From: Saccharopolyspora sp. NFXS83
Lineage (GTDB): Bacteria > Actinomycetota > Actinomycetes > Mycobacteriales > Pseudonocardiaceae
Direction: 5' to 3'
Assembly (NCBI RefSeq): GCF_026241095.1
Contig: NZ_JAPFGB010000013.1
Span: 1-39,489 of the forward strand
DNA: 39,489 nt
Shown: piece after piece, positions 1 to 23,701 of the stretch
Layout of the letters: each line of letters opens with the position of its first letter
How positions within the stretch are numbered: position 1 is the stretch's first letter
Translations under genes and position numbers: made by a program
The notes under the pieces: generated by a model
The model's input: only the letters and a program-made list of their open reading frames with translations
Told to the model about the DNA's origin: nothing
The model's database searches: none

Positions 1-218
1 CTGCCACAACGACTTCCTTCCTCGGTCTGCACGAGCAGACCAGACTCGGAAGCCTCCGGACAAACGGGGGAAGCTCATCGACGTCCGGCGCTGGCCTGAT
101 GGCAGCCGGTAATCCTTCGATCGCAGTATGTGTGGGAGTTCGCTGGATCGCGGTTCGCCGTGTGAGACACGGCAAGGTGAGTGCACTGGCTGGCGGTGAC
201 GTGGCTAGGGTGGCGTCC
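1..218. other. No gene recognised
   Basis: No reading frame here looks like a conserved protein. The stretch precedes the first membrane protein gene and may carry its promoter, but I see no convincing -35/-10 pair. Confidence 0.4.
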
Positions 219-704
219 GTGAAGGAGTTCATCGCCTGGAAACGCCGCCGAACCGCGCTCGTCGCGCTTCCGGTGGCGCTGCTGGGGTTTCTCCTGTTGC
301 AGATCGTCTTGTTGCCCGCCCACGGCACGCCGGCGCATGACGCTGTGATGTCCGGGCCTGCTGCTCCGGCTAGTGTTGCGTCCCATGTAGAGCAGCGGCA
401 GGCAACGGCTCCAGATCATGGTGGTGCCGGTCACGCGCACGCCGGCGACGGTCACGGTCCTCACCAGGGGGAGCCGGTGTGCCACGCTGTGCCCAGCTAT
501 GCCGACGTCGTTCCGAGTCGCTTCTGGGATGACGAGTTCACGAAGCTTGGTCTAAGCGTTCTGGTCGTTTTGGTGGCTGGAGTGCTGGCGGATTCGCTTG
601 TCTTGCCGCGGTCGCCGTCGTGTCACCGCGGATGGTGCTCACGCCCGCTTTGGCGACCTGCTGGGGTGGACCTTCTGACACGCGTGTGTATCGCCCGAAC
701 TTGA
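219..704 (+). CDS. Small His-rich membrane protein, DUF6153-like
   Basis: A 161-residue protein with a basic N-terminus (KRRR), one hydrophobic segment at about residues 11-29, a His/Ala/Gly-rich loop (HAHAGDGHGPHQGEP) and a second hydrophobic segment at about 110-128. It ends in LLTRVCIART, which resembles the LAELCVLRL ending of the DUF6153 gene at 4532-4969. The His-rich loop lies between the membrane segments, an arrangement seen in actinobacterial proteins that sit beside copper-associated DUF305 genes. Metal binding is therefore plausible but not shown. GTG codons at 201, 210 and 219 are all in frame; 219 is preferred because it has a GGGTGG stretch about six bases upstream and is followed directly by KEFIAWKRRR. 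It is transcribed in the same direction as the SbnA-like gene, with a 248-base gap that may hold a promoter. Confidence 0.6.
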   Translation: MKEFIAWKRRRTALVALPVALLGFLLLQIVLLPAHGTPAHDAVMSGPAAPASVASHVEQRQATAPDHGGAGHAHAGDGHGPHQGEPVCHAVPSYADVVPSRFWDDEFTKLGLSVLVVLVAGVLADSLVLPRSPSCHRGWCSRPLWRPAGVDLLTRVCIART

Positions 705-952
705 TTTCACTCGCAGCGTCGCGCGCCTCGTAGGCGTATCCCAAAATTCTGCCACTTCCGTGGCGAGGGCATGTCGCCTTGTGGGATTGCGTTTTTCGCT
801 GGGCGGACCGCAGTGCTGCTCGAATCCTCTCGTTATGTTCGGTTTTGAATCGCACTGATGTCTCGCGGCGCTGACCGCTTGCTTGTCTCTTGGCAACGTG
901 TCTTTCAGCGAGTGCGGCTGCGCATGGACGCGCCGTATTCAGGAGGTTCCCA

Positions 953-1933
953 GTGATCCATGATTCGGTAATCAGTTGTGTCGGATCGACCCCGATGGTC
1001 CGTCTCGACCGTTGTTTCCCAGACCCCGACGTAGAGGTGATCGCCAAACTGGAAATGCTCAACCCCGGCGGCAGCATGAAGGATCGACCCGCCCGGTTCA
1101 TCGTCGAGCAGGGCCTGAGAGAAGGTGCCCTGCGCCCAGGAATGCGCCTGGTAGAGAGCACCTCCGGCAATCTCGGAATCGCGTTGGCGATGGCGGCCGG
1201 CCTGCATGGGTTGGCATTTACCGCCGTGGTCGACCCCAAAACGTCACAGGCCAATCTGCGCTTGCTGGAGCTGTTCGGGGCCGACGTGGAGATGGTGACC
1301 GAACCCGACGAGGCAGGTGGGTACCTGCACACCCGAGTCCGTCGCGCACGGGAACTGGTCGATGCCGCCTCAAACGCGGTGTTGGTGAACCAGTACGCCA
1401 ATGAGCTCAACTGGCGCTCCTACCACGACACCGCCGGGCAGGAAATCCTCGATGCCATCGACGGCACGGTCGACTACCTGGTGGCGGCGGTGTCCACGAC
1501 GGGGTCCATCCAGGGCATCGCGCGTCGGCTGCGGCAGGAACATCCGAAACTCAACGTGGTGGCGGTGGATGCCGTGGGGTCGGTCATCTTCGGCGCTCAG
1601 GCCGGGCCACGCCAGCTGCCTGGTTTCGGTGCCAGTCGTGTGCCCGAGATCCTCAATGCTGAGGAGATCGACGAGGTGGTGCACGTCGGTGACGCGGAGT
1701 CGGCAGCCGGGTGCCGGCACCTTCTGTCGACGGAGAAGATCTTCGCAGGAGGGTCGTCAGGTGCGGTCGTCGCCGGGATCGAGCACCTGGCGTCACGGCT
1801 CAACCATCCGGCGCGGGTGGTCACGGTGTTGCCCGATCGAGGTGAGCGCTACCTCGATCTCGTCTATGACGATGCGTGGGTCGCCAGCCTCCGTGATCCG
1901 TGGCAGGAAACGGAAACGGCGGTCAGCACGTGA
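953..1933 (+). CDS. SbnA-like PLP-dependent amino acid synthase
   Basis: A 326-residue fold-type II PLP enzyme of the cysteine synthase superfamily. NPGGSMKDR near residue 40 carries the PLP lysine, ESTSGNLGIAL is the substrate loop, and GGSSGA lies near the C-terminus. The ESTSGNLG loop, the PDEAGGYLHTR segment and the LPDRGERYLD ending match SbnA (staphyloferrin B) and related 2,3-diaminopropionate enzymes better than CysK. SbnA joins O-phospho-L-serine and L-glutamate to N-(2-amino-2-carboxyethyl)-L-glutamate. The GTG at 953 was chosen because a perfect AGGAGG (941-946) lies six bases upstream. Its stop overlaps the start of the MFS-DUF1015 gene, so the two are translationally coupled. The usual partner SbnB, which releases diaminopropionate, is not in the window, so the product is uncertain. 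Confidence 0.88.
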   Translation: MIHDSVISCVGSTPMVRLDRCFPDPDVEVIAKLEMLNPGGSMKDRPARFIVEQGLREGALRPGMRLVESTSGNLGIALAMAAGLHGLAFTAVVDPKTSQANLRLLELFGADVEMVTEPDEAGGYLHTRVRRARELVDAASNAVLVNQYANELNWRSYHDTAGQEILDAIDGTVDYLVAAVSTTGSIQGIARRLRQEHPKLNVVAVDAVGSVIFGAQAGPRQLPGFGASRVPEILNAEEIDEVVHVGDAESAAGCRHLLSTEKIFAGGSSGAVVAGIEHLASRLNHPARVVTVLPDRGERYLDLVYDDAWVASLRDPWQETETAVST

Positions 1934-4473
1934 CCGGCACACTCCAGACCCGCCCACGAGAGCAGGTTCCCAGGCAACGAGCCTTGAACGTCCACCGCAG
2001 GAACTTGATGTTGCTGTGGGCGGGACAGTTCGTGAACACCGCCGGGTTGATGATGCTGGTGCCGATCATGCCCTTCTACCTGAAGGACATGGGCATCCGG
2101 GGAGTCGCGGAAACGCAGACGTGGGCTGGGGTGGCCATCGCCGCCCCGGCCTTGGCCCTGACTGTGGCGACCCCGTTGTGGGGTCGACTCGGTGATCGGG
2201 TCGGCCGCAAGTGGATGGTCGTGCGAGCTCTGCTGGGACTGGCCTCGGCGATGGTGGTCATGGCCTTGGCGTTCAGCCCAGTGGTGTTGGTCGCGGGCCG
2301 CTTGCTGCAGGGCGCCCTTGGTGGGGTTGTCGAGGCCGCCGCGGCGTTCGCGGGATCAGCCGGTTCGGATAAGAAGCGTGGCTCGTCGCTGGGCAAATCG
2401 TTCAGCGCGACCGCCGCCGGGGCCTTGGTCGGACCGATCGCCGGTGGCTTGTTCGTCGGTGCTGGCGGCTTGCGGCAGCTCATGTTCGTGATAGCCGTCG
2501 CTGCGGTTGTGCTTGCCGTGGGCTGTGCCGTCGGCCTAGGGGAACCGGAGCGAGCACGGCCCAGCGGACGTGAACGGTCGCGGAAGAACCGGCGTGGCGT
2601 GTTGAGCGTTCCCGGCGCCGTGCCGCTGGCGTTGGCTGCCGTTGGCGTCTACTTCGGTGTCTACGGGCTGATTCCTGTTTTCGCCGAACACGTCAGCGGG
2701 ATCGTCACCGCGCCGAACTCCGCGAGCCTGTGGGTGGGTGTGCTCCATTCGGTGATGTGGGGCGCCACGCTGCTCGGGTCGTTCTGGTGGGGTAAGCGCA
2801 ACGATGTCACCGGCCGCCCCGTCCGTGCCTTTGCCCTGGCGGCGGGCGGTTGCGCTGTCAGCATCGCGGCGGTGGTGCTTCCGCTGGGACCGCTGGCAGT
2901 GATCCCGCTACGTCTGGTGCAGGGGTTCTGCTTCGCCGCGCTCGCTCAATCGCTGTTCCTGCACTTCAGCCATCATGCACCGGAGGAACGGAAGAGTTCG
3001 CTGGTCAGCACGGCCAACAGCTTCCTGCTGATCGGGCAATCCGCCGGACCCTTGTTGGCGGGGCCGTTGGTGCTAACGATGCCCGTCAGTGGTGCTGTGC
3101 TCGTGATGGCCGCCGCCTCCGGCCTGGCCTGCGTGCTTGCGCTCGGTCCTGCCCGCGCGGAGAAACACGCCGCTGCAGGCAGTGTTGGTCACGATCGCGA
3201 GACTGGGGAGGAGACGACTCAGCTTCCCGCTGTTGAACCCGCGATCGTGGATGCCCCGAGCAAAACCACGCAGGGGCCCAACTCGATCTGTCCTGGCGTC
3301 AACGTGCGTCCATTCGGCGCATGGATGCTCGCGCCCGAGCGCTTGCATCGCCTCGCCGACCGGCGCGCCACACCGTGGGACCGGACCGACGGCAGGCCGG
3401 ATGCCCGGCGAGCCGTGCATGTCGTGGACGAGTGGAAGCGGAACGGCGTAGTCGTCCGTCAGCCCCAGGAGGCCCTGTACGCCTATGAGCAAACCGGGCC
3501 GCTGGGATGGCAACGCGGCTTGATATCGGCCGTGCACCTCGACAGCCGATTGCTGCCGCACGAGGACGTGAGCCCCGTTCGAGCGGAGGACATGGCCGAG
3601 TTCATGCGAGCCAGCGGCATGAATTTCCCGCCGATTCTGCTCGGGTACTCCGGTGATGGGCGAACGACCGAACACCTCGACACCGCGACTCGACACGCGC
3701 CGGTTGCCCAATTGTTCACCACAGACGGGCAGGAACACCGCGTTTGGCGTGTCCAGAGCAGTGCGGCGCATGCCGCGATCACCGACGAGCTCCGGACACG
3801 GCCGGCGTTCATCGCCGACGGCCATCATCGGTACACCGCGGCGCGGCAGTTCCGTAGGCAGCTCTACGCCGCCGGATATGGTCGCGGCCCATGGGACTAC
3901 CTGCCGGGCGTTCTCGTCGACACCCAGTACAGCCCCCTGCAGATGGGACCTCTGCACCGCGAACTGCCCTACGTGAATCCCCGCCACATCCTTGCAGCGG
4001 CGGCGAGGTGCTTCCGGATCACGGCGCTGAGAGGCCCGCTGGAGGAGTGGATCGATGTGCTCCGGGCACACGCTCGTCGAGGGCCTGCTTTCATTATCGC
4101 CACACGGCAGGAAACATTTCTGCTCACTGATCCGCATCCGGGATTCCTGAACGACGCTGTGGGCCGGTTGCCGGATCCTGTTCGAACCATGCATCTCACC
4201 GTGCTTGATTCCTTGATCAACAAGGTGTGGGCGGTACCTGAGCAGGACATCCGTTACGAGCCCAGCGCCACCTGCGCGGTGCGCCGGGTGCACGAGCACG
4301 GCGGACTCGCCATCCTCGTCATGCCCCCGACCCAACGAAGCCTGCAGGCCGCAGCGGCAGCGGGCAGCCGCCTGCCCTACAAGGCAACGACTTTTGGGCC
4401 GAAGCCCCATCCGTCTTTGGTGCTGCGCACCCTCGGCACCTTCCCGGGTGAAGTGAGCTGTCGTGCAGCTTGA
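1930..4473 (+). CDS. MFS transporter fused to DUF1015 domain
   Basis: A single uninterrupted 847-residue frame with two parts. Residues about 20-420 are a major facilitator superfamily permease with about 12 hydrophobic segments and the loop motif GRLGDRVGRK; the drug/metabolite exporter type is most likely. After an acidic linker (RETGEETTQ), residues about 455-840 form a DUF1015 (COG4198) domain starting NVRPFGAWML and containing ADGHHRYTAA near residue 630. DUF1015 proteins carry the DGHHR signature shared with the ParB/sulfiredoxin-fold free serine kinases (SerK, SbnI), and DUF1015 genes sit beside serine biosynthesis genes in Bacteroidetes. Serine kinase activity is therefore a reasoned guess. 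The GTG start at 1930 overlaps the SbnA-like stop (GTGA). I know of no common MFS-DUF1015 fusion, and no frameshift is visible at the junction. Confidence 0.85.
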   Translation: MTGTLQTRPREQVPRQRALNVHRRNLMLLWAGQFVNTAGLMMLVPIMPFYLKDMGIRGVAETQTWAGVAIAAPALALTVATPLWGRLGDRVGRKWMVVRALLGLASAMVVMALAFSPVVLVAGRLLQGALGGVVEAAAAFAGSAGSDKKRGSSLGKSFSATAAGALVGPIAGGLFVGAGGLRQLMFVIAVAAVVLAVGCAVGLGEPERARPSGRERSRKNRRGVLSVPGAVPLALAAVGVYFGVYGLIPVFAEHVSGIVTAPNSASLWVGVLHSVMWGATLLGSFWWGKRNDVTGRPVRAFALAAGGCAVSIAAVVLPLGPLAVIPLRLVQGFCFAALAQSLFLHFSHHAPEERKSSLVSTANSFLLIGQSAGPLLAGPLVLTMPVSGAVLVMAAASGLACVLALGPARAEKHAAAGSVGHDRETGEETTQLPAVEPAIVDAPSKTTQGPNSICPGVNVRPFGAWMLAPERLHRLADRRATPWDRTDGRPDARRAVHVVDEWKRNGVVVRQPQEALYAYEQTGPLGWQRGLISAVHLDSRLLPHEDVSPVRAEDMAEFMRASGMNFPPILLGYSGDGRTTEHLDTATRHAPVAQLFTTDGQEHRVWRVQSSAAHAAITDELRTRPAFIADGHHRYTAARQFRRQLYAAGYGRGPWDYLPGVLVDTQYSPLQMGPLHRELPYVNPRHILAAAARCFRITALRGPLEEWIDVLRAHARRGPAFIIATRQETFLLTDPHPGFLNDAVGRLPDPVRTMHLTVLDSLINKVWAVPEQDIRYEPSATCAVRRVHEHGGLAILVMPPTQRSLQAAAAAGSRLPYKATTFGPKPHPSLVLRTLGTFPGEVSCRAA

Positions 4474-4531
4474 GGAGACGGCAACCTCGCGCAGCGCTTG
4501 TCGAACACCACGAAGGTGCGAGCGCTTTAGG

Positions 4532-4969
4532 ATGGAGGTCGTGCGAACCCGGTCAGTGTCCGGCCCGTGGTGGCTGTTGCTGTTGCTCGCCTTCGGTGTG
4601 GTGGCCATGCACCACGCGCCGATCGCGCATGCCGACGGGACGCCATCGCACGGTACGCCGCCTGCGGTCAGCACCGAGCACCGATCCGCGGGGCCGGGCC
4701 AGCCCATGTCAGCCAGTGTCGGTGGCGATACGGCCACCCATGTCCCTGTCGTCTCCGCTGGCGACAAGTCGGGTATGGAACACGGCTTGCTGCACCTGTG
4801 CCTAGCGGTCCTGGCAGGAGCCGCCGCTGTCGCCATCGCGTCGCTGGCACTGCGGACCCTGCCCGCGACTGCTTCGCTTCGAGCATCGACCCCGACGAGC
4901 ATCGGACGCGCCCGACCTCCACCGCCGGTTCCTCGAAGACTTGCCGAGCTGTGCGTCCTTCGACTGTGA
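4532..4969 (+). CDS. DUF6153 family membrane protein
   Basis: A 145-residue protein. It has one hydrophobic segment (WWLLLLLAFGVVAM) near the N-terminus, a Thr/Ser/His-rich loop with MHHAP and GMEHG, a second segment around HLCLAVLAGAAAV, and a Pro-rich tail ending LAELCVLRL. This layout is typical of DUF6153, a small actinobacterial family often found directly upstream of DUF305 genes, as here (91-base gap). His and Met in the loops suggest a role in copper handling, but no function is established. The start is uncertain: ATG 4532 is listed, GTG 4541 is equally reasonable, and GTG 4463 would overlap the preceding gene. It is the second His-rich two-segment protein in this region, the first being at 219-704. 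Confidence 0.75.
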   Translation: MEVVRTRSVSGPWWLLLLLAFGVVAMHHAPIAHADGTPSHGTPPAVSTEHRSAGPGQPMSASVGGDTATHVPVVSAGDKSGMEHGLLHLCLAVLAGAAAVAIASLALRTLPATASLRASTPTSIGRARPPPPVPRRLAELCVLRL

Positions 4970-5060
4970 GCATCCGCCTCCCGTAACGATCACGGGGACT
5001 GTTGCGGGCACGTGCTCAGGTTGAAATCGCATTGAATACGCATGACGAAGGAACCTCAGA

Positions 5061-5696
5061 ATGAAGATTATTCGCGTAGCGGGCGTTTCGATCACAGCGG
5101 CAGTCGCGGCTGTCCTGCTCGCCGGGTGTACCGGCTCCGATCAAGCCATGCCCGGCATGGATCACGGCACTCCGCCGAGTGCCTCGCAGCCGCCTGCCGA
5201 AGCCGGCCAGCACAACGATGCCGACATGGCCTTCGCGCAAGGCATGATTCCCCACCACACTCAAGCGATCAAGATGTCGCAACTGGCACCGGAGCGGGCG
5301 CAGTCCGAGCAGGTGAAGAACCTCGCTCGCCAGATCGAAGCCGCCCAAGGCCCGGAGATCGACACGCTGACCGGGTGGCTAAAGGGTTGGGGAGCCCCGG
5401 CACCGCAGAGCGGCATGTCCGGCATGGACCACGGTGACATGCCAGGCATGGAACATGGCGGCATGCAGGGCATGATGGCCCCGGAGGACATGCAGACGCT
5501 CCAAGAAGCCAAGGGCGCCGAGTTCGACCGCATGTTCCTAGAGATGATGATCAAGCACCATGAGGGCGCGGTGGGCATGGCCCGGACCGAGCTGGCTCAA
5601 GGTCAGTTCTCCGAAGCCAAGCAAATGGCCGAGCAGATTATCAGCAGTCAGCAGGCCGAGATCAAGACCATGCAGGACCTGCTGAAGCAAGGCTGA
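5061..5696 (+). CDS. DUF305 domain lipoprotein
   Basis: A 211-residue secreted lipoprotein. The signal peptide (residues 1-22) ends in the lipobox LAGC, so it should be anchored to the outer face of the membrane. The mature part has GMDHG-type Met/His repeats (QAMPGMDHG, SGMDHGDMPGMEHGGMQG) and two DUF305 half-domains with the family signatures FAQGMIPHHTQAI and FLEMMIKHHEGAV. DUF305 is a ferritin-like helical domain, and copper-induced members are known in actinobacteria, so binding of copper or a similar metal is likely. The ATG has AAGGAA about nine bases upstream. A hairpin terminator follows eight bases after the stop, so this gene ends its transcription unit. It pairs with the DUF6153 gene just upstream. 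Confidence 0.88.
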   Translation: MKIIRVAGVSITAAVAAVLLAGCTGSDQAMPGMDHGTPPSASQPPAEAGQHNDADMAFAQGMIPHHTQAIKMSQLAPERAQSEQVKNLARQIEAAQGPEIDTLTGWLKGWGAPAPQSGMSGMDHGDMPGMEHGGMQGMMAPEDMQTLQEAKGAEFDRMFLEMMIKHHEGAVGMARTELAQGQFSEAKQMAEQIISSQQAEIKTMQDLLKQG

Positions 5697-5703
5697 CACG
5701 GTC

Positions 5704-5741
5704 GACGGTGCCGCTCGTCCGTATCAGCGGGCGGCACCGTC
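5704..5741 (+). terminator. Hairpin terminator after DUF305 gene
   Basis: A perfect 11-bp inverted repeat (GACGGTGCCGC at 5704-5714, complement at 5731-5741) with a 16-base loop starts seven bases after the DUF305 stop. No T-run follows, which is common for actinobacterial terminators. Confidence 0.6.
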
Positions 5742-6110
5742 ACGCCTACCGGATCACCACGCCGGGCGCGGTCGTGGTCGTCTCCGGCGACACCCGCGTC
5801 TACGACGAGGTCCAAAGACCTCGCGCGCGGCGCCGACGTGCTGGTGCACGAAGCCTGCCGCGCCACCTCGCTGGCGCCGTACGTCGAGGGCTCCGCTTTC
5901 GAGACGATCTTCAGTTACCACGCCGACACCGTCGCCCTCGGCGCGCTGGCCGAGAAGGCCGGAGTGGGGCAGCTGGTGCTCAACCACCTCATCCCCGCGC
6001 CGGAGAGCGACGAGGACCGCGCCGCCCACGAGCAGGAGGTGCGCGACGGCGGCTGGACCGGCCCGGTCCTCGTCGGCTCCGACCTCGATTCAGTCGTGCT
6101 CGGCGGCTGA
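5720..6110 (+). pseudogene. Remnant of metallo-beta-lactamase-fold hydrolase
   Basis: Only the C-terminal half of an MBL-fold hydrolase (RNase Z/arylsulfatase-like group) is present. The first frame reads YRITTPGAVVVVSGDTRVYDEV, then shifts near 5812 to a second frame reading LARGADVLVHEACRATS through FSYHADTVALGALAEKAGVG and LVLNHLIPAPE. Removing one base from gtccaaag would restore a single frame. The N-terminal metal-binding HxHxDH region is absent, and the fragment begins inside the terminator hairpin of the preceding gene, so it has no start of its own. The SGDT, HEA and NH(L)IP motifs of the family are still readable, so the decay is probably recent. A sequencing error could explain the frameshift but not the missing front half. 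Confidence 0.7.
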
Positions 6111-6452: not shown

Positions 6453-7703
6453 TCAGCTGGTGGGGCGGTTGTCCTGCGGGCGTTGCAGAGTTTGGAACTG
6501 GTCGATCCAGGCGTAGCCGCGGCCGGGTAGCCCGTCGGGTCCCGGCTGGACGGTCTTGGAGGCGAAGACGCTGTTGAACAGCCACGGCGTCTTGTCCGCG
6601 TTGAAGCCCTGCACCATCGGGTCGTCCTGCGCGATGCCGTAGGAAGCGAAGGCGAGCCTGCCCGTGTCCCGCAACAGCTGGACTTGATCGCGCAGGAAGT
6701 GCTTGTGCTGTTCGTACCACGGGCTCATCGAGCACAAGTCGTTCCACTGCCGCTGCGGCACCGGGGTGTCGATCGCCGCGCGCACCGCCTTCCACACCGG
6801 AGTTCCAGCCGGGAAGCCGTACCGCCGGGCGTACTCGGCCGGTACCGGCTTGCGGAGCTGCTTCTTCCACAACAGCACCAAGGAGAATTCGGTGACCAGG
6901 ATTCGCTGGTCGCCGCGCAGCTTCGGCAGCACGTAGTCGAGGTAGGCGTTGGTGCCCTCCGGCGCGTCCACATGGGGGTGGATGTCGACGCCCTCGATCT
7001 CCGGGGTGCGCCGGGCGAAGTCGAGCCAGCGGGCGGTGGCGTTCGTCTGCTCGTCAGGCCGGTCGAGGTGGTTCAGCGCGCCCAGGAACAGGTGGGTGCG
7101 GCAGCCCTCGGGGAAGTGGCGCCGCCGGTAGTCGATGACGTGCCGCGTCAGAATCTCGTAGTACTCGTTGAGCCGCTCCGTTCGGTCGGATCGACGAGTC
7201 TCCAGGAACGGTTCGTTGCCGACGCAGAGCAGCTCCACCCGGTCCATGACCGCTGGCAGGACCTTGTCGAGCCGGGCGAGGTCGGCGTTCATCGCCGGGC
7301 TGCCGGGGCGCGGGAGTGGGCGATCGCTGTTCTGGAACTTCAGTGACAGGGCGGTGCCGTAGCCCCGGTCCGCCGCCTCCAGGAGCAGGCGCAGCTCGGG
7401 CTGCTGAGCGGGGTCGCCCTGGTCGGTCTTGTGCATCGTGACGAAGCCGCGCAGCCAGCTGCTGTTCATCGCTTCCAGCTCGGGGAAGGTCACTGTGTCC
7501 GTTGCACCATTGAAGTTCGCCCCCAGCACCCCGTCCGGGATCCCCGTTGGACCCGGTTTAACCGGTTCGCCCGCCTTTCGCGGCGCTGGCGACGAATTGA
7601 CTGGGGAGCGTTCAGCTTCACAGCCTGCCAAGCCGATGCTAGCCGATGCCAGCAATGCTGCCAGCTGCCGCCGCGACAACGTCAACTGCCCGTACTGTTG
7701 CAT
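6453..7703 (-). CDS. Secreted lipoprotein with clan GH-A-like TIM barrel
   Basis: A 416-residue protein. The N-terminus has SRRQL followed by a hydrophobic stretch and the lipobox LAGC (Cys about residue 28), so it is probably exported, perhaps by the Tat pathway, and lipid-anchored. The mature part looks like a (beta/alpha)8 glycoside hydrolase of clan GH-A: LLCVGNEPFLE supplies the Asn-Glu acid/base pair and RILVTEFSL supplies the nucleophile-type Glu. VDIHPHVDAPEG between them is typical of the barrel's active-site loops. Substrate and exact GH family cannot be assigned by eye. The ATG at 7703 is preceded by GAAGGTGATC, a good ribosome binding site; the longer open frame upstream is not needed. 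The gene stands alone, convergent to the MBL remnant. Confidence 0.75.
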   Translation of the reverse strand: MQQYGQLTLSRRQLAALLASASIGLAGCEAERSPVNSSPAPRKAGEPVKPGPTGIPDGVLGANFNGATDTVTFPELEAMNSSWLRGFVTMHKTDQGDPAQQPELRLLLEAADRGYGTALSLKFQNSDRPLPRPGSPAMNADLARLDKVLPAVMDRVELLCVGNEPFLETRRSDRTERLNEYYEILTRHVIDYRRRHFPEGCRTHLFLGALNHLDRPDEQTNATARWLDFARRTPEIEGVDIHPHVDAPEGTNAYLDYVLPKLRGDQRILVTEFSLVLLWKKQLRKPVPAEYARRYGFPAGTPVWKAVRAAIDTPVPQRQWNDLCSMSPWYEQHKHFLRDQVQLLRDTGRLAFASYGIAQDDPMVQGFNADKTPWLFNSVFASKTVQPGPDGLPGRGYAWIDQFQTLQRPQDNRPTS

Positions 7704-8642
7704 GATCACCTTCACTGTGGCGGTTCGGATACCGCCGGGGAGTGTGCCTTTGGCACTGTTCGACTTGTTTCGACGGGTGACCCGACGCGTTGCAGCCGTC
7801 GTCCGCTGGACGCGCCGAAGGGCGTGGTGGTTGTCCGGTCGGCGATGGGGAACTCGCGGCAACCCGCGCCCTGGACTCTTGGGTGCGCGGAGAAAGTGCA
7901 CGGCCTCGGCGATTTCTTCGGCGTAACCGTGCAACCTCAGACCGGCCAATTCGTTTAAATTGTCGTGGACGCTCCGGGGGGAGCTCGTTTCTGAAAAAAA
8001 TCGGTGCTTGAAAAATTCCGAGTGCGACCACCTTGGACGTAAGCACGCGCGTATCGACGCTTGCGCGTTTGTCGTCGTTGGCCTCGCTCATTAGGGTCGC
8101 AGTGATGACGCCCGTGTCGATGTTGGCTCGTCAGCGGTCCAGTGCTCGACTTGGGCGGTCCACGCCGAAAGATCGAGCTCGACGCCTTGCGGATTGGTCG
8201 GTTACGCCTACACCAGTGATACCTGGCGCGGCCAGAGTCTGAGCGGGACACCGAGACCGAAAAGGTGATCAGACGACACCTTTGGGTCCACGCTGGGAAA
8301 CATGCCGCCTTCCTGCTGGTCGGATGGCTAAGTCCGGCGTCTGCGAAGGCCTGAGAGCTCGCCTGACCTTGGCTATAGCGCTCGTCGGTGGGCAGGAATA
8401 ACGGAGGTGAGCACAGCGCTTCCTGGAAGCCGCTCCGAAGCTGTCCGGAAGGGCACCTTGCATGCGCGGGGCTCGTGGTGCTCGCCGTTGTGGGATGCTG
8501 CGTTGGTGCTGCGCATCGGCTGGTCTTTTCAGGTGAGGTTTCCGATGCGCTGAGCAAGATCTTTCTGCGAACCCTTAACTGTGGGCCGGACGCTCGCCGG
8601 TGACCTGGAAGTTCCTGGTCACGCACACCGCTGGGCCACTGA
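7704..8642. other. 939-bp stretch without a recognisable gene
   Basis: Short open frames occur on both strands, but none resembles a known family or has a convincing start. An A-rich patch near 7994-8016 is unusual for this genome and may belong to the promoter of the minus-strand lipoprotein gene. The frames running antisense into 8690 are reverse reads of the tRNA-like sequence and are artefacts. Confidence 0.5.
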
Positions 8643-8694
8643 TGCCTTACAAGCAAGGGGTCGCTGGTTCGAACCCAGCTGCGCCCACCGTAGG
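8643..8694 (+). repeat. tRNA 3'-half remnant, candidate att repeat (left copy)
   Basis: TGCCTTACAAGCA (8643-8655) matches an anticodon arm with a UAC (Val) loop whose 5' stem is incomplete. It continues into a variable region, a perfect T-arm (GCTGG-TTCGAAC-CCAGC, 8663-8679) and a 3' acceptor strand TGCGCCCACC. No D-arm or 5' acceptor strand lies upstream, so this is only the 3' part of a tRNA gene, as left at the end of an element integrated at a tRNA. Positions 8653-8694 recur as a direct repeat at 16395-16436 with three C-to-T differences in 42 bases. Confidence 0.75.
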
Positions 8695-8959
8695 GGAAAC
8701 CCGCTGATTTGGTGCAAATGACCAGTTCGGCGGGCTTTTCTCGCTCATCGAGGCGACAGCAACCGATTTCCCCGCCGTCGTCACTGCTGGACATCTTGCG
8801 GTTCCCTCCGGGAACCGTCCTTCATCGAGGCCAGTGCCAACACCAGGCCAGCTGGCAGTCCGTAGTGGTTCTGTTCGGGAGCCTCCTGCGTCGAGGCCGG
8901 TATCCCCTGCCGTGGCGGGCCGACAGTGTGCAAGAGCTGACGAGGTCAGCGCCGGCCAG

Positions 8960-9333
8960 CCGGTGCTCGAGGCGATCGCGATGACGGTCAGCGCCAGCCG
9001 CTCCACCAGAAGCGCGTCGAGCGGGTGGGGCTGCCGTCGCGTTCGATCCACACCAGCCCGTTGAGACCGTCGCCGGCGAGCCGCTCGGCCACCCGCGGCT
9101 CGCCGCCCGCCGCGGAGATCCGTCCACCGCCGGGACCGCAGCGCAGGTCCACCGGCGCACCGCCGTCGCGGACCAGGCTGATCCCGACGATGCACTCCCC
9201 GAGCACGGCGGCTGCGCGCACCGCCGCGGGAACATCGGCGCGGTGCCGGATCAGGGCGTCGAAGTAGTCGATCACGGACCGAGCTCGCCGCTCCCGCGTC
9301 GAGTTCGGCGAGCCGGTACGTGAGACCTTGCAC
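8960..9333 (-). pseudogene. Remnant of PucR/CdaR-type regulator
   Basis: Pieces of a PucR-like transcriptional regulator are spread over two frames. The first reads QGLTYRLAELDAGAASSV, a one-base shift near 9275 moves to VIDYFDALIRHRADVPAAVRAAAVLGE through GLNGLVWIERDG, and a second shift near 9020 returns to PLDALLVERLALTVIAIAS. Joined, these give the N-terminal module of actinobacterial PucR-family proteins, which use a PLDALVLERLA-type segment after the sensory domain. The C-terminal helix-turn-helix is missing: after IAS the sequence is no longer recognisable and soon reaches the tRNA repeat at 8694. Two shifts plus truncation make a true pseudogene more likely than sequencing error. It is nine bases downstream of the esterase on the same strand. 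Confidence 0.6.
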
Positions 9334-9342
9334 GCGGTGACG

Positions 9343-10332
9343 CTACGAGGAGCGTTGTTCCACCTGCAAGCCCCTTGCCAGCGCAACGATGACCTCCGCG
9401 GCGCCCCGCACGCTCACCGCCGCGGTGGACAGCAGCGAGGAACCGTGGAACGTGCCGGGGAACGAGTGCAGCTCCACGCTGACGCCCGCCTGCAGCAACG
9501 CCGTCGCATAAGCGATGCCCTCGTCCCGCAGCGGGTCCAGCTCCATGGTCGAGAGGTAGGTCGGGGGCAGGCCGCGCAGGTCCTGCGCCCGCGCCGGGGC
9601 GGCGTACGGGGAGACCTCGGCGTCCGATTCCGCCGCCGTGCCGTTCCTGCCCAGGTAGTACTGCCACGACAGGACAGCGTTCGGTCGGTTCCACATCGGG
9701 GTGTCCACGAACTCGACCATCGACCGGGTCTCCAGCCGGTCGTCCAGCTCCGGGATTTCCAAGAGCTGGAAGGCGACCGGGACCTCGCCCCGGTCGCGCG
9801 CCAGCAGCGTCGTCCCCGCGGCCAGCCCGCCACCCGCGCTCTGCCCGCCGACGGCGATCCGTTCCGGGTCGACGCCGAGCTCGGCTGCGTTGGCGTGCAG
9901 GTACCGCAGCGCGGCGTAGCAGTCCTGCAGCGGACCCGGGTAGGGGGTTTCCGGCGCGAGCCGGTAGTCGACGCTGGCGACCGCGATGCCCAGCCGTTGC
10001 ACCAGGTCGATGCAAAGCGGGTCCTCGACCTTGGCCTGGCCGATGGCGAACCCGCCGCCGTGGAGCCACAGCAAGGTCGGCAGGGCGTCCCGTTCCGCTG
10101 CGTCCGGCGGCGTGAAGAAGCGGATCGAGACGTCCGGCGCACCCTCCGGGCCGGGGGCCGCCAGCTCGCGCCACGTGATCCCCTCGTACGAGACCGCGGC
10201 GAGCATCGCCTCGGTCATGGTGGTGAAGCGTTCCCGAGCCGTGGTCAGGTCGGCGAAGTCCAGCTTCGGCAGCATCGCCGCCGCGGCGGCGAGCTCGGGG
10301 TCCATTGTGGGAAACGTGGTCATGACGGGCAT
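9343..10332 (-). CDS. HSL-family alpha/beta hydrolase (esterase/lipase)
   Basis: A 329-residue alpha/beta hydrolase of the hormone-sensitive-lipase group (alpha/beta-hydrolase_3). The oxyanion motif HGGGFAIG, the nucleophile elbow GGQSAGGG, the catalytic Asp in STMELDPLRDEG and the catalytic His in FPGTFHGS are all present and correctly spaced, so the enzyme should be active on short acyl esters. There is no signal peptide, so it is probably cytoplasmic. Start candidates are ATG 10332 and ATG 10323; neither has a strong ribosome binding site. It lies inside the tRNA-repeat-flanked segment, divergent from the fatty acid operon more than 1 kb away. A link to that operon, such as releasing or trimming an acyl product, is possible but unsupported. 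Confidence 0.88.
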   Translation of the reverse strand: MPVMTTFPTMDPELAAAAAMLPKLDFADLTTARERFTTMTEAMLAAVSYEGITWRELAAPGPEGAPDVSIRFFTPPDAAERDALPTLLWLHGGGFAIGQAKVEDPLCIDLVQRLGIAVASVDYRLAPETPYPGPLQDCYAALRYLHANAAELGVDPERIAVGGQSAGGGLAAGTTLLARDRGEVPVAFQLLEIPELDDRLETRSMVEFVDTPMWNRPNAVLSWQYYLGRNGTAAESDAEVSPYAAPARAQDLRGLPPTYLSTMELDPLRDEGIAYATALLQAGVSVELHSFPGTFHGSSLLSTAAVSVRGAAEVIVALARGLQVEQRSS

Positions 10333-11372: not shown

Positions 11373-12395
11373 ATGGCAGCGAGTGCTGTAATTGCGGGGT
11401 TGGGGGCATGGCTGCCGCCGTCGGTGGTGACCAACGGTGACCTGTGCTCGCGACTGGACACCACTGAGGAGTGGATAGAGAGTCGCACCGGGATCCGGGA
11501 ACGCCGCGAGGTCTCCGGCGGGGCGGCCACAGTGGATCTCGCGGTCAAAGCCGGCGAACGAGCGTTGAAGTCGGCCGGCCTGCGATCCGTTGATGCGGTC
11601 GTCATCGCCACTACCTCGCCTGATCGGACCTGTCCGGCGGGCGCGCCGGAGGTGGCGTCGAGACTGGGCGTGGGTGCGGTCGCCGCCTTCGACCTGACTT
11701 CCGCCTGCAGCGGGTTCGTGTACGGGCTTGCCACCTGCGCGGGGCTCATTGCCGCCGACGTCGCCGAGACGGTGCTCTTCATCGGTGCGGAAGCGTTCTC
11801 CACGTTCGTCAACCCGGAGGACCGGGCGACGGCGCCGATCTTCGGTGATGGCGCTGGTGCGGTGGTGTTGCGCCGCGGGAGTCCCGACGAACCGGGCGCG
11901 ATCGGGCCGTTCGATCTGGGCAGCGATGGCGAGAATGCCGACCTGCTCGCGGTCGCGGCCGGTGGTTCCCGGCAGCGCGCGTCGACCAGGCTCGGCAACG
12001 ACGACGTGCCAACAGAGGACTGGTACCTGTCGATGGCCGGGCGGGCCATCTTCCAACACGCGCTGGCGCGAATGACGGCGTCGGCGAACACCGTGCTGGA
12101 CCGGGCGGGCTGGGCGGTGGCGGATGTGGATCGTTTCGTGGGGCACCAGGCGAACATTCGAATTCTCACGTCGGTCGCGCAGCGCCTGGGTATTGCGCAG
12201 GACCGGGTCCCGGCCAACATCGACCGGGTCGGGAACACGCTGGCCGCTTCCATCCCTCTCGTTCTCGCGGAATCCTGCGCCAATGGCGACCTGAGGCCGG
12301 GTGACCGCGTGTTGATGACCGCGTTCGGAGCGGGGCTTTCATGGGGCTCGACAGTGCTCGTGTGGCCAGACGTCGTGACTACGAGTCCATTCTGA
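11373..12395 (+). CDS. Beta-ketoacyl-ACP synthase III (FabH-type)
   Basis: A 340-residue KAS III. The catalytic triad is intact: Cys112 in DLTSACSGF, His258 in VGHQANIRIL and Asn288 in RVGNTLAAS. It condenses a CoA starter with malonyl-ACP to begin fatty acid synthesis. Since it sits in an operon with its own ACP, KAS II and acyl-CoA oxidase rather than with fabD and other housekeeping genes, it probably makes a dedicated short or medium acyl chain. The same KAS III/ACP/KAS II trio occurs in CDA (fabH4, fabF3) and prodiginine (redP, redQ, redR) clusters. The ATG at 11373 follows GATGGAG by about ten bases. A 1-kb gap upstream makes it the first gene of the operon; the ACP follows after 28 bases. 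Confidence 0.92.
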   Translation: MAASAVIAGLGAWLPPSVVTNGDLCSRLDTTEEWIESRTGIRERREVSGGAATVDLAVKAGERALKSAGLRSVDAVVIATTSPDRTCPAGAPEVASRLGVGAVAAFDLTSACSGFVYGLATCAGLIAADVAETVLFIGAEAFSTFVNPEDRATAPIFGDGAGAVVLRRGSPDEPGAIGPFDLGSDGENADLLAVAAGGSRQRASTRLGNDDVPTEDWYLSMAGRAIFQHALARMTASANTVLDRAGWAVADVDRFVGHQANIRILTSVAQRLGIAQDRVPANIDRVGNTLAASIPLVLAESCANGDLRPGDRVLMTAFGAGLSWGSTVLVWPDVVTTSPF

Positions 12396-12423
12396 TTTTA
12401 TCTGATTCGATGAAAAAGAGGCT

Positions 12424-12666
12424 ATGGTGGAAAAACTGATCAGCCGTGTCGGGGAACTCTTGACCAGCCGGTTTGAAGTTGCCCCCGATGACGTGAGCCC
12501 TGACGCGTCGTTCGACGACCTGGGCTTGGACTCCTTGGCGCAGGTGGAACTCGGAGAAATCCTCGAGCAGAATTTCGGCATCGAGGTGTCCGATGAAGAA
12601 ATGGAGAAATTAGCGACACTGGCCGATCTGGCCGAGTTGCTGAAGCAAAAAGGCGTGGCCGCCTGA
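12424..12666 (+). CDS. Acyl carrier protein
   Basis: An 80-residue acidic ACP. The phosphopantetheine site is Ser37 in DDLGLDSLAQVELG, and predicted helices I-IV are all present (through EEMEKLATLADLAELL). It would carry the growing acyl chain between the KAS III before it and the KAS II after it, and could present the finished chain to the acyl-CoA oxidase. The ATG has AAAGAGG about five bases upstream. The stop overlaps the next start by one base (TGATG), so it is translationally coupled to KAS II. It must be activated by a phosphopantetheinyl transferase encoded elsewhere. Confidence 0.93.
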   Translation: MVEKLISRVGELLTSRFEVAPDDVSPDASFDDLGLDSLAQVELGEILEQNFGIEVSDEEMEKLATLADLAELLKQKGVAA

Positions 12667-13889
12667 TGCCTGGGTTCGCCGCGGCGGTCACCGGGCTGGG
12701 GTTGATCACGCCCGCTGGCACCGGGATCGAAGCGAACTGGGATCGCGTCACGTCCGGGCGGCCGACGGCGGCCGTCGATCCGGAGCTGGACGGCCTCCCG
12801 GTCAACTTCGCGTGCCGAGTGCCTGACTTCGATCCCGCCGCGAGCCTGGGCGAGCAGAAGACCTGGCAACTCGATCGGCATCAGCAGTTCGCCCTGGTAG
12901 CGGCCCGCGAGGCCATCCGAGATGCAGGACTCTCCCCGGAGAGCTGGGACGGCTCGCGCGTCGCCGTCGTTCTCGGGTCCGGCGCAGGCGGCAGCTCGAC
13001 GATGGAAAACCAGCAGACCCGGCTCCTCGAACGGGGTGCGGCGAAAGTCTCTGCCCTGACCCTCCCGATGGGGCTCGTCAACATGGCCGCTGGCCGGTTG
13101 GCGATCGAGTTCGGTGCCCGCGGGCCGAACCTGACGGTCTGCACGGCGTGTGCCTCCGGCGCGAGCGCAATCGGCACGGCTCGCGACCTCCTCCGCTCCG
13201 GTGCGGCCGACATCGTGATCGCCGGTGGCACCGAGGCGGTGGTGACTCCGCTGTTCGTCGCCGCCTTCAACCGGATGCGGGCCCTGTCGAGGAACAATTC
13301 CGATCCTGGGGCGGCATCCCGCCCGTTCGACGAGGCACGCGACGGTTTCGTCATCGCCGAAGGTGCCGCCGTGCTCGTCCTGGAGAACGAACGCCATGCC
13401 CAGGCCAGGAAGGCACGGGTGCGGGGCCACGTCGTCGGTTACGGAGCGTCCGCCGACGGGCATCACATCACCGCGCCGGATGCGGACGGTGCAGGGGCCG
13501 AGCAGGCGCTGCGAACCGCGATGAAAGATGCCGACCTCACCGCGGAGGAGGTGCAGCACGTGAACGCTCACGGTACTTCAACGCCTCTCAACGACGTGGC
13601 CGAAGCAGCGACCATTCGGCGGGTCATCGGTGACCATGCCGCCGTGAGCTCGACCAAGGGCGTGACCGGACATGCGCTCGGTGCCGCCGGCGCGATCGAA
13701 GCCGCCTACAGCATCCTCGCGCTCCAGCACGCGTGTATTCCCCCTACTGCCAATTTGGAGAATCCGGATCCACGGGTAGACCTCGACCTCGTCGCAGGGG
13801 CGGCGCGGGCGGGTGAAATCCGCGTGGCGCTCAGCAATTCATTCGGATTCGGCGGGCAGAACGCGGTTCTGGCGTTCGCCTGCGTCTGA
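12666..13889 (+). CDS. Beta-ketoacyl-ACP synthase II (FabF-type)
   Basis: A 407-residue KAS II of normal length with all catalytic residues: Cys162 (TACASGA), His302 (NAHGTST), Lys331 (STKG) and His336 (TGHALGAAG). It elongates acyl-ACP with malonyl-ACP. The intact Cys distinguishes it from a chain length factor, so it acts alone rather than as half of a type II polyketide heterodimer. No ketoreductase, dehydratase or enoyl reductase lies in the operon; those steps would be borrowed from housekeeping fatty acid synthesis, as in the prodiginine and CDA systems. The start overlaps the ACP stop, and the acyl-CoA oxidase follows 19 bases after the stop. Confidence 0.92.
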   Translation: MPGFAAAVTGLGLITPAGTGIEANWDRVTSGRPTAAVDPELDGLPVNFACRVPDFDPAASLGEQKTWQLDRHQQFALVAAREAIRDAGLSPESWDGSRVAVVLGSGAGGSSTMENQQTRLLERGAAKVSALTLPMGLVNMAAGRLAIEFGARGPNLTVCTACASGASAIGTARDLLRSGAADIVIAGGTEAVVTPLFVAAFNRMRALSRNNSDPGAASRPFDEARDGFVIAEGAAVLVLENERHAQARKARVRGHVVGYGASADGHHITAPDADGAGAEQALRTAMKDADLTAEEVQHVNAHGTSTPLNDVAEAATIRRVIGDHAAVSSTKGVTGHALGAAGAIEAAYSILALQHACIPPTANLENPDPRVDLDLVAGAARAGEIRVALSNSFGFGGQNAVLAFACV

Positions 13890-13908
13890 GAGAACGGTGA
13901 GGATCCCC

Positions 13909-15771
13909 ATGACACGCTCCGTGGAACGCCTGGAGCAGGCCGAAAACCACAGTACGGACGCCCATGACGAGCTCGTCGCGCTCATCTTCGATGGCAAGTT
14001 CGCGAGCCTGCACGAGGACCTGCGCACCGAGCTGGAGCGCCCGCTGTTCGATTCGCGGCCGGGACTGTCGGCCCTGGACGCGGGGCGGCTGTCCTACGAG
14101 CGGGCTCGCTGGCTGCACGACCGTACGGGCCGTGACGGTGAGCTGGTGCGCGACCCCGAGCGGATGTTCGCGATCAGCGAGTGGTCGTGCCTGGCGGATA
14201 CCACCACTCTTCCGGTGCTGAATATCCACTACAACCTGTGCATGGGGACCATTCTCGCGCACAGTGCGGAACGAGACGACCTCGACGATTACCTCGAAGA
14301 GCTCAGCAGCATGTCCTCGGTTGGCCTGCTGATCGCCACCGAACTCGGCTATGGAAACAACATTGCAGCGTTGGAGACCGTGGCGGTCTACGATCACGCG
14401 AATGGCGAGTTCGTGCTGAACACCCCGAACGCTCGGGCGCAGAAGTTCATGCCGAACACCGGAATCACCGACATCCCCAAGCTGGCGGTGGTGCTGGCGC
14501 GGCTCGATGTTTCCGGGGTCGACCGTGGCGTTTTCCCGTTCATCGTGCGCATCTCCGACCGGGACGGCCTGCGTCCGGGCGTTCACGTCGAGCGACTTCC
14601 GGAGAAGCCCGGATTCGCGTTGGACAACGGTGTGACCCGGTTCGAGAACGTCCGCATTCCGCGCAGGAATCTGCTGACCGGGAACATGGGTGAACTCACC
14701 CCCGAGGGAGAGTTCCGCAGCATCGTGAAGAACAAGCGCAGGCAGGTGCTGCGCGTCCTGGACAGGGTGACCCCGGGGCGGATCTGTTTGAGCGGTGCGC
14801 TGGTCTCAGCTGGGCGGGCCAGCACTTACATCGCGATCCGGTACTCGTGGCAACGTCTGACGGCCGGGCCCGGAAACGGCGAGATGCCGATCATCGCGTT
14901 CCGCAGTCAGCAGACAGCGCTGTTCACCGCGCTGGCCCGTGTTTACGCGATGACTTTCCTGCTCAATCACGTGAAACGGGAGTACCTCGGTTGTGACGAG
15001 GGGAACCGGACCGAGGTCAACCAGTTGATCTCGATCGCGAAGGTGGTGTCGAGCTGGGAGATGTCCGAGGTCCTCCACGTCTGCCGGGAGCGGTGCGGTG
15101 CACAGGGCATGTTCTCGATCAATCGAATCGCGGACTACATTCCGATGGCGCAAGGCGTGGTCACTGCCGAGGGGGACAACCTGCCACTGCTCGCCACGGT
15201 GGCCAGCCAGTTGATGACCGCACGACACGGTAGGCCGGTTCCCCAGCCGCCGGCGCCCGCTGACCTCGACGACTGCGATTTTCATCGTGACCTGCTGCGG
15301 TATCGCGAGGAAAGCCTGCGCTGGGAAGCGCAACAGGAGATGTCCGCACAGGCCCAAGAGGGGCAGAGCCTGCACGCCCGCTGGAACGACAACATGAGCA
15401 CTGCCATGTCGATGGCTCGGACCCGCGGTGCGAGACTGGCCTTGGAGCGGCTTTCGGTGGTGGCGGGCGGTGCCGGGATCGCGGAAAGCCGTGCTGCGCT
15501 GGAACTGCTGTCGAAGATCTACGGTCTCGGCGAAATCGACCGGGACAGCGGCTGGTACCTCGCGCGGGGAGCTGTGCGCCCCGACCAGGTGGAGCGACTG
15601 CCTCGCGAGATCGACTCGCTGTGCGAACAGCTCCTGCCGTACTCGGCGATGCTCGTGGACGCGTTCGAACTCACTCCCGAACTCCTGCGCGCGCCCATTG
15701 CGGCTGATGACTACGTTTCCGCGGTCGATCTGGCGGTCGGACACGGGCTCACCACGGCTGAGGTCGGCTGA
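13909..15771 (+). CDS. Acyl-CoA oxidase-type flavoenzyme, HxcO-like
   Basis: A 620-residue FAD enzyme of the acyl-CoA oxidase family. Recognisable parts are LATELGYGNNIAALET (flavin-site region), NVRIPRRNLL in the beta domain, and VTAEGDNLPLLATVASQL in the C-terminal helical domain. Such enzymes introduce a 2,3 double bond into an acyl thioester and pass electrons to oxygen. Placed after KAS III, ACP and KAS II it recalls HxcO of the CDA cluster, which oxidises and epoxidises hexanoyl-ACP; a 2,3-enoyl or 2,3-epoxyacyl product is therefore the leading hypothesis. The companion monooxygenase HcmO is absent. ATG 13909 has GTGAGGA about six bases upstream. It is the last gene before a strong terminator. 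Confidence 0.87.
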   Translation: MTRSVERLEQAENHSTDAHDELVALIFDGKFASLHEDLRTELERPLFDSRPGLSALDAGRLSYERARWLHDRTGRDGELVRDPERMFAISEWSCLADTTTLPVLNIHYNLCMGTILAHSAERDDLDDYLEELSSMSSVGLLIATELGYGNNIAALETVAVYDHANGEFVLNTPNARAQKFMPNTGITDIPKLAVVLARLDVSGVDRGVFPFIVRISDRDGLRPGVHVERLPEKPGFALDNGVTRFENVRIPRRNLLTGNMGELTPEGEFRSIVKNKRRQVLRVLDRVTPGRICLSGALVSAGRASTYIAIRYSWQRLTAGPGNGEMPIIAFRSQQTALFTALARVYAMTFLLNHVKREYLGCDEGNRTEVNQLISIAKVVSSWEMSEVLHVCRERCGAQGMFSINRIADYIPMAQGVVTAEGDNLPLLATVASQLMTARHGRPVPQPPAPADLDDCDFHRDLLRYREESLRWEAQQEMSAQAQEGQSLHARWNDNMSTAMSMARTRGARLALERLSVVAGGAGIAESRAALELLSKIYGLGEIDRDSGWYLARGAVRPDQVERLPREIDSLCEQLLPYSAMLVDAFELTPELLRAPIAADDYVSAVDLAVGHGLTTAEVG

Positions 15772-23083: not shown

Positions 23084-23701
23084 TCATAGCCAGCCGCGTT
23101 CGCGCGCGAGGCGGGCGGCGTCGTGCCGAGTTCGGGTATTGGTCTTCTGCATCGCGTTGGAGAGGTAGTTGCGCACGGTGCCGGGGGCGAGGTGGAGTCT
23201 GCTCGCGATGTTCTTCACCGAATAGCCTTCGCGGGTTTCGAGCAGGGTGTCGAGTTCGCGGTCGGTGAGGGGGCAATCATCGACGACGGAGGCCTCGAGG
23301 ACTTCGTAGGCGATCCAACGTCGCCCCGCGTGCAATTCGTGGACGACCTCGACGATCTCTTCGGGATCGGCGCTCTTGCTCATGAACCCTTGCACGCCGA
23401 GTTTCAACGCCCGTCGCAGCACCCCTGGCCGGGCGTGTCGGGTGAGCATGAGAACGGCCTGCTCCGGGCGCTCTTCGGTGATCGCGGCGACCGCTTCGAG
23501 GCCGCTCATGCCGGGCATCTCAAGGTCGATGACGAGCACGTCGGGACGGTGCCGCAGGGTCGTGTCGACCGCATCGGCACCGCTCCCGGCCTGCGCGACG
23601 ACCACGATGGTGCCGTCGAGGGGTAGTAGCGATGCCATCGCGGTGCGCAGGAGTTTCTCGTCGTCGGCGAGGACGACCCGTATTGGGTCATCGCTGGTCA
23701 T
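23084..23701 (-). CDS. NarL/LuxR-family response regulator (DesR-like)
   Basis: A 205-residue response regulator. The receiver has the acidic pair in VVLADDEKLL, the phosphoacceptor Asp in VLVIDLEMPGMSG and the Lys in GFMSKSA, so it should be phosphorylated normally. The C-terminal LuxR helix-turn-helix reads LTDRELDTLLETREGYSVKNIA then LHLAPGTVRNYLSNAM. The ATG at 23701 lies inside the end of the kinase gene (14-base overlap), so the two are translationally coupled and form one system. In the DesKR-like group such regulators respond to membrane state or lipid-targeting antibiotics; the signal here is unknown. GTGAC-N5-GTCAC sites upstream of the operon may be its binding sites. Confidence 0.9.
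   Translation of the reverse strand: MTSDDPIRVVLADDEKLLRTAMASLLPLDGTIVVVAQAGSGADAVDTTLRHRPDVLVIDLEMPGMSGLEAVAAITEERPEQAVLMLTRHARPGVLRRALKLGVQGFMSKSADPEEIVEVVHELHAGRRWIAYEVLEASVVDDCPLTDRELDTLLETREGYSVKNIASRLHLAPGTVRNYLSNAMQKTNTRTRHDAARLARERGWL

Follow-up and report, generated by a model that had tools for sequence, protein, structure and literature searches.

The window analysed here, a stretch of 39,489 nucleotides from Saccharopolyspora sp. NFXS83, is the start of contig C5 in a 6.9-Mb genome of 70 contigs (completeness 97.5%); window base 1 is also the first base of the contig. Close to this end lie two overlapping genes (953..4473) that encode an SbnA-type synthase dependent on pyridoxal phosphate (PLP) and a fusion of a major facilitator superfamily (MFS) transporter with a DUF1015 domain (Table 1). 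The coordinates given for the two genes in an earlier note hold. The pair is conserved in relatives, so the pairing is not due to chance. The synthase gene starts with the GTG at 953, six bases behind an AGGAGG at 941-946, and its stop codon ends at 1933. The longest frame of the fusion gene runs from the GTG at 1900 to 4473 and comprises 857 residues. Judged from the sequence, a start at the GTG at 1930 is likelier, which overlaps the TGA of the synthase gene (1931-1933) as GTGA.

Table 1. Positions of the genes, domains and motifs at the locus
Feature	Position	Strand	Basis or detail
Promoter-like element	160..211	+	GTGTGAGA and TAGGGT at 206-211; alignment of upstream regions
LpqS-like small His-rich protein, probably exported	219..704	+	Start picked from promoter alignment
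SbnA-type PLP synthase	953..1933	+	Pfam, NCBIfam, residue alignment
MFS transporter-DUF1015 (SerK/SbnI-like) fusion	1930..4473	+	GTGA overlap with synthase gene
MFS part of fusion	2014..3189	+	Pfam MFS_1
DUF1015 domain of fusion	3301..4434	+	Predicted free-serine-kinase fold (AlphaFold2)
Glu codon GAG in PHE motif, aligned with SerK Glu30	3562..3564	+	Weakly scored profile alignment
DGHHR motif	3817..3831	+	Alignment with SerK
DUF6153-like small protein	4463..4969	+	26.5 bits, just below cut-off of 27.7
DUF305/CopM-family protein	5061..5696	+	DUF305 182.3 bits; CopM domain 113.8 bits (cut-off 90)

The synthase matched the Pfam family PALP with 228.7 bits. Against the NCBIfam model for SbnA (TIGR03945) it scored 402 bits and passed the cut-off of 349.95; the other 24 of the 25 NCBIfam models listed (of 34 matched families) all stayed below their own cut-offs. 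The scores for CysK and CysM were 236.9 of 350.95 and 208.9 of 394.2 bits, and the cystathionine beta-synthase model also remained below its threshold, a result that tells against an ordinary cysteine synthase. The best PDB match was the solved SbnA structure (385 bits), followed by the next enzyme at 189. In the alignment with this structure (5d84, with a check of the columns) K43, R128, Y148 and S181 correspond to SbnA Lys47, Arg132, Tyr152 and Ser185, the last three of which are described in an excerpt of PMC12414870 as the selectors of O-phosphoserine. Together with the passed SbnA model, these residues suggest an enzyme suited to O-phospho-L-serine, as had been proposed earlier. R128 and Y148 are also present in CysK2-type rows. 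The S181 position is Gly in four CysK2-type rows and in two SbnB-associated SbnA rows (L114, L115) as well, such that this residue cannot separate the two types.

Identity of the synthase was 59-61% to two SbnA rows of the staphyloferrin B (SB) type and 36-40% to three mycobacterial CysK2 rows. We calculated a tree of 68 sequences, from which a wrong-frame translation (L007, a row of alignment A3) was left out and which carried a long-branch warning for the outgroup rows. All 22 synthases of the window type formed one clade (support 100/99). Its sister consists of 10 SbnA from the same bacterial family, 8 of which have SbnB within 2.5 kb; of the other two, L053 was labelled by hand from adjoining IucA/IucC and L092 is unlabelled. 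The window synthase is nested in the SbnA clade and well removed from the CysK2 rows, which formed a separate clade. Orthology with CysK2 was ruled out by this tree and by the absent similarity of the MFS transporters. The same genome also encodes a CysK2-type synthase (L006, C8:90915-94814), which groups with the mycobacterial CysK2 rows.

For the fusion protein, Pfam placed MFS_1 (residues 39-327) and DUF1015 (residues 491-741) in one frame of 857 residues, which bears out the proposed fusion to a putative exporter. A crude scan found 11 hydrophobic segments in the MFS part, all within residues 26-404 counted from the GTG at 1930. Following the protein's own group, the next-closest transporters share about 40% identity with it. 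Seven of their loci were fetched, and in 5 the transporter lies in an SB-like cluster with SbnA (L049, L050, L051, L053, L055, as opposed to L048 and L052); model searches confirmed both SbnB and an SbnC-like synthetase in L051. The simplest history would be recruitment of the first enzyme and the exporter from an SB-like cluster, with SbnB and the synthetases left behind. Long open reading frames (ORFs) in L071 and L074 that had the appearance of a triple synthase-MFS-DUF1015 fusion were rejected, as the N-terminal part of each results from reading the synthase gene in the wrong frame.

The DUF1015 domain gave no match in a PDB search with its sequence alone and only weak SerK matches in a profile search. 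Its likeness to free serine kinases therefore rests on fold comparison. An AlphaFold2 model (mean predicted local distance difference test score 88.7) had as its nine best PDB structure matches SerK, SbnI and the Pyrococcus SerK homologue, well above ParB and sulfiredoxin. A structural match to SerK/SbnI, the lack of which the earlier note had named as speaking against its proposal, was thus found. The predicted fold is shared with SerK (from Thermococcus) and SbnI over 211-227 aligned residues, and the window domain carries both the PHE and the DGHHR motif. It differs from these kinases by an identity of only 14-15%, an extra N-terminal part and the attached transporter. The catalytic Glu at the position of SerK Glu30 is present, with the alignment of the PHE motif being weakly scored on its own, and it is kept in 6/6 free-standing DUF1015 copies fetched. 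Fold and Glu are consistent with a relationship to SerK/SbnI. The ADGHHR signature said to be shared with these kinases was found in the window, but the solved SerK reads VDGHHR. An excerpt of PMC12704722 (section 8) names DUF1015, spelled DU1015 there, as one of the fusions of the ParB-like fold, and our literature search found no paper joining DUF1015 and 'serine kinase'. The fusion to a transporter hints at what DUF1015 may do biochemically; our main doubt concerns the kinase activity of the fused domain.

The distribution of both parts was determined in 200 genomes of the family, counting the synthase at >=64% identity. It occurred in 16 genomes (23 places). The close DUF1015 clade was found in 13, at 15 places comprising 8 fused and 7 free-standing copies, and the two occurred together in 9 genomes (Fisher p 6e-9, uncorrected for kinship). 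In 3 of the 8 fused cases the frame is broken as assembled (G112, G160, G163). Outside the family, a search of 396 sampled genomes of the phylum at E up to 1e-105 returned the window's genome as the sole synthase match. Six plasmid records matched the fused protein, none covering 80% of it.

A copper context of the module, which had not been noticed earlier, became apparent from the neighbourhoods (23 loci from 18 genomes in the clustering). The window's genome encodes a second, free-standing DUF1015 protein (L056, C22:6000-24000; gene at 8489-9661) that is 57% identical to the fused domain and whose gene is convergent with copA-copZ-csoR as identified by Pfam. Genes resembling copA and csoR adjoin the free-standing DUF1015 in 5/5 same-genus loci fetched (L056-L060; a sixth genome, G079, is not among them). 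Locus L063 (G013:C1:2616000-2634000) holds within one 18-kb stretch a homologue of the module, a csoR/ricR-type gene, copZ, copA and a multicopper oxidase. The DNA of this homologue aligns with window 903-3353 and 4484-5746 at an identity of about 81% and includes the DUF6153-like gene. The module of L063 is without the DUF1015 part (about window 3354-4313; L063 about 6900-8350), and beside the gap lie genes that appear transposase-like by eye. A multicopper oxidase is nearby in 6 genomes (a partial frame in G163, indicated solely by the clustering in G005), and 5 genomes have DUF305 nearby. In contrast, 0/80 DUF1015 loci from named genomes had a copper, synthase or MFS query match among their called genes, with DUF1015 itself missed by the gene caller in 7 and many loci cut by contig ends. 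The link between DUF1015 and copper thus seems peculiar to one clade. A PLP enzyme with weak similarity to PvdN (score 114, cut-off 650; L064:9879-11258, L062:14905-16218) adjoins the synthase-MFS pair in 4 of the 18 genomes, and its N-terminus, by eye resembling a twin-arginine translocation signal, hints at tailoring outside the cytosol. Close to the synthase-MFS copy of L064 lies a cyclodipeptide synthase gene (254 bits, L064:5362-6087).

The reported absence of SbnB applies locally: contig C5 gave no match, but the genome encodes a canonical SbnB over the cut-off at C7:44627-45604, with its own adjoining SbnA at C7:45699-46592. Behind this pair lies a very long ORF, which by eye resembles a nonribosomal peptide synthetase. 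IucA/IucC had 0 matches in the genome.

Taken together, the module may be a copper-stress unit whose task is to produce a small chelating amino acid and release it from the cell, a reading that we regard as plausible yet tentative. The DUF1015 domain on the exporter tail would phosphorylate cytosolic serine to O-phospho-L-serine, from which the SbnA-type synthase would eliminate the phosphate and add the amine of an amino acid, most likely glutamate. By analogy to SbnA chemistry the product would be N-(2-amino-2-carboxyethyl)-L-glutamate or a close analogue. With no SbnB alongside and no IucA/IucC in the genome, this adduct would be the end product and would be exported by the MFS part. The expected adduct has an ethylenediamine core, i.e. 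amines two carbons apart, with flanking carboxylates, and would be an N2O2-type Cu(II) ligand, a pattern typical of strong ligands. One enzyme would therefore suffice for an extracellular copper buffer, which would act alongside RicR/CsoR, CopA, CopM and the multicopper oxidase. The likely biology shifts from an iron-type siderophore to copper stress. Bacteria usually answer copper excess with efflux ATPases, metallothionein, oxidases and chaperones; a protective chelator made by a single enzyme and exported would, if true, be a different strategy.

Several observations weigh against this reading. No CsoR/RicR-type box was found at the operon (best 7 of 12, none at <=1 mismatch in the window), and one such box lies far off at 23222 with 2 mismatches, when queried with a palindrome taken from csoR loci rather than with the mycobacterial RicR operator and with an upstream sequence that ends at the contig end. 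The same palindrome was perfect or one-off at 6/6 csoR/ricR loci examined; it was not found upstream of the free-standing DUF1015 gene either. The sole NCBIfam match of the protein at 219..704, LpqS, spans nearly the whole model at 17.7 bits, below the cut-off of 35, and the csoR/ricR-type protein of L063 scored 156 bits with the RicR model (cut-off 175). The free-standing DUF1015 gene of G013 (L061) does not adjoin copA. In 4/8 fused relatives the catalytic Glu is replaced by Gln, and 3 of these 4 genomes (G103, G163, G196) have no other copy of the close DUF1015 clade. This clade is lacking in 7/16 synthase genomes, one of which (G091) has a broken remnant, and 4 of its 13 genomes (G101, G112, G120, G160) gave no synthase at E 1e-95. 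The earlier proposal of a self-contained unit of supply, condensation and export is partly supported: candidate parts for all three lie in the window, but the kinase fusion is not obligatory. According to excerpts of the literature, M. tuberculosis cysK2 is induced by zinc too and the phenotypes given for its mutants concern oxidative stress and the cell wall, such that copper need not be the sole signal.

CysK2 is reportedly, by the title of a reference, an O-phosphoserine-dependent S-sulfocysteine synthase. The principal alternative takes the window enzyme for a CysK2-like sulfur enzyme, which in times of copper or oxidative stress would couple O-phosphoserine to thiosulfate or to a different sulfur nucleophile, the MFS part exporting S-sulfocysteine or a related compound. 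The layout resembling lpqS-cysK2-MFS would agree with this, as would the reported activity of CysK2, the shared R128 and Y148 and, according to an excerpt, the sensitivity of cysK2 mutants to oxidative stress. We nevertheless consider it improbable given the position of the synthase inside the SbnA clade, its much higher identity to SbnA than to CysK2, and a mycobacterial MFS without BLAST match to that of the window. Another reading concerns the DUF1015 tail, which instead of acting as a serine kinase could have a regulatory role, binding a nucleotide or serine and gating the exporter, with O-phosphoserine coming from the ordinary SerC pathway. The Glu-to-Gln replacements and the synthase genomes without the domain are in line with such a role, and an excerpt of PMC12704722 describes non-enzymatic users of the ParB-like fold. 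Yet the best fold matches are two free serine kinases, above ParB and sulfiredoxin, the Glu is kept in the window and in all free-standing copies fetched, and the domain co-occurs with the synthase in 9/13 genomes; we hold a regulatory tail to be somewhat unlikely. A split pathway, in which the adduct is processed to diaminopropionate by an SbnB encoded elsewhere, could draw on the canonical SbnB of C7. This enzyme, however, has its own adjoining SbnA, the relatives of the module sit in copper neighbourhoods, and an exported adduct would be out of reach of cytosolic processing, which leaves this route very improbable.

Regarding transcription, the promoter-like element is clear in 6 of 10 aligned upstream regions (L041, L042, L044, L070, L074, L075) and weaker in the window. 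A TAGGGT-like -10 sequence just ahead of the start codon suggests a leaderless message with a possible start at 219. A stricter consensus of the element occurred in 4/11 genomes, there solely at this operon, and was absent from the window's genome at <=3 mismatches. With 0 sites elsewhere, a regulon for this private element was dismissed. Further downstream, window 11373-15771 contains an ORF that by eye resembles 3-oxoacyl-ACP synthase III as well as further large ORFs.

The module is built from known parts, and its function is possibly general. Compared with staphyloferrin B biosynthesis (SbnA/SbnD), the window synthase has the same selector residues, the MFS part resembles the transporters of SB-like clusters, and in Staphylococcus, according to excerpts, a kinase of the DUF1015-type fold supplies the substrate of the synthase. 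Unlike that system, the module lacks SbnB on its contig and IucA/IucC in its genome, its kinase-type domain is fused to the exporter, and its relatives have a copper rather than an iron neighbourhood. Our literature search found no title or abstract opening describing a copper module of SbnA, serine kinase and exporter.

The second comparison is with mycobacterial lpqS-cysK2-Rv0849 of the RicR regulon, which has the same order of LpqS-type gene, synthase and MFS; in relatives of the window module, too, a multicopper oxidase and a repressor of the RicR/CsoR type are encoded close by. It differs in that its synthase belongs to the other branch and its MFS is dissimilar. Six f8 loci (L106-L110, L113), taken as mycobacterial, have synthase and MFS ordered as in the window; none gave a DUF1015 match, and two small upstream genes that were tested passed the LpqS cut-off (109 and 132 bits). 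As far as excerpts of the following sources go, the RicR regulon of M. tuberculosis, which is induced by copper, includes mmcO, lpqS, cysK2 and Rv0849 (PMC10470581, PMC7924339), and lpqS to rv0850 are co-transcribed (PMC10956863). Besides ricR, the excerpt of PMC10470581 implicates only mmcO and mymT of the regulon in copper resistance, that of PMC10956863 describes a copper-sensitive lpqS mutant, and that of PMC7924339 credits the whole region with lowering copper toxicity. A product or cargo of the synthase and transporter is not named in the excerpts of these three papers. If true, the copper-chelator reading would provide a role for this part of the regulon.

Among 15 plasmid records matching SbnA, 7 were opened. 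Four had SbnB and IucA/IucC, one was a Pseudonocardia cluster with IucA/IucC and one a Streptomyces cluster with no SbnB in view. The remaining record, a Brasilonema plasmid (L216, CP030122.1 55000-103000; 25866-28002), has an SbnA gene on its own (60.8% identity) with an EamA transporter gene behind it, in a cyanobacterial island of heavy-metal resistance that also holds cadA, a CusA/CzcA system, a resistance-nodulation-division system and a metal P-type ATPase. A small aminopolycarboxylate metal ligand is known from the same bacterial family as the window, namely ethylenediamine-disuccinate of Amycolatopsis japonicum, whose biosynthesis is zinc-regulated and takes more enzymes than the window module has. 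Copper protection could in its minimal form consist of one PLP enzyme and a kinase-exporter fusion, with an ethylenediamine-type Cu(II) ligand exported as finished product, and a lone SbnA- or CysK2-type synthase with an exporter could have arisen repeatedly as a general module against metal stress, in Pseudonocardiaceae, mycobacteria and cyanobacteria; we put this forward as a possible, if rather doubtful, generalization.

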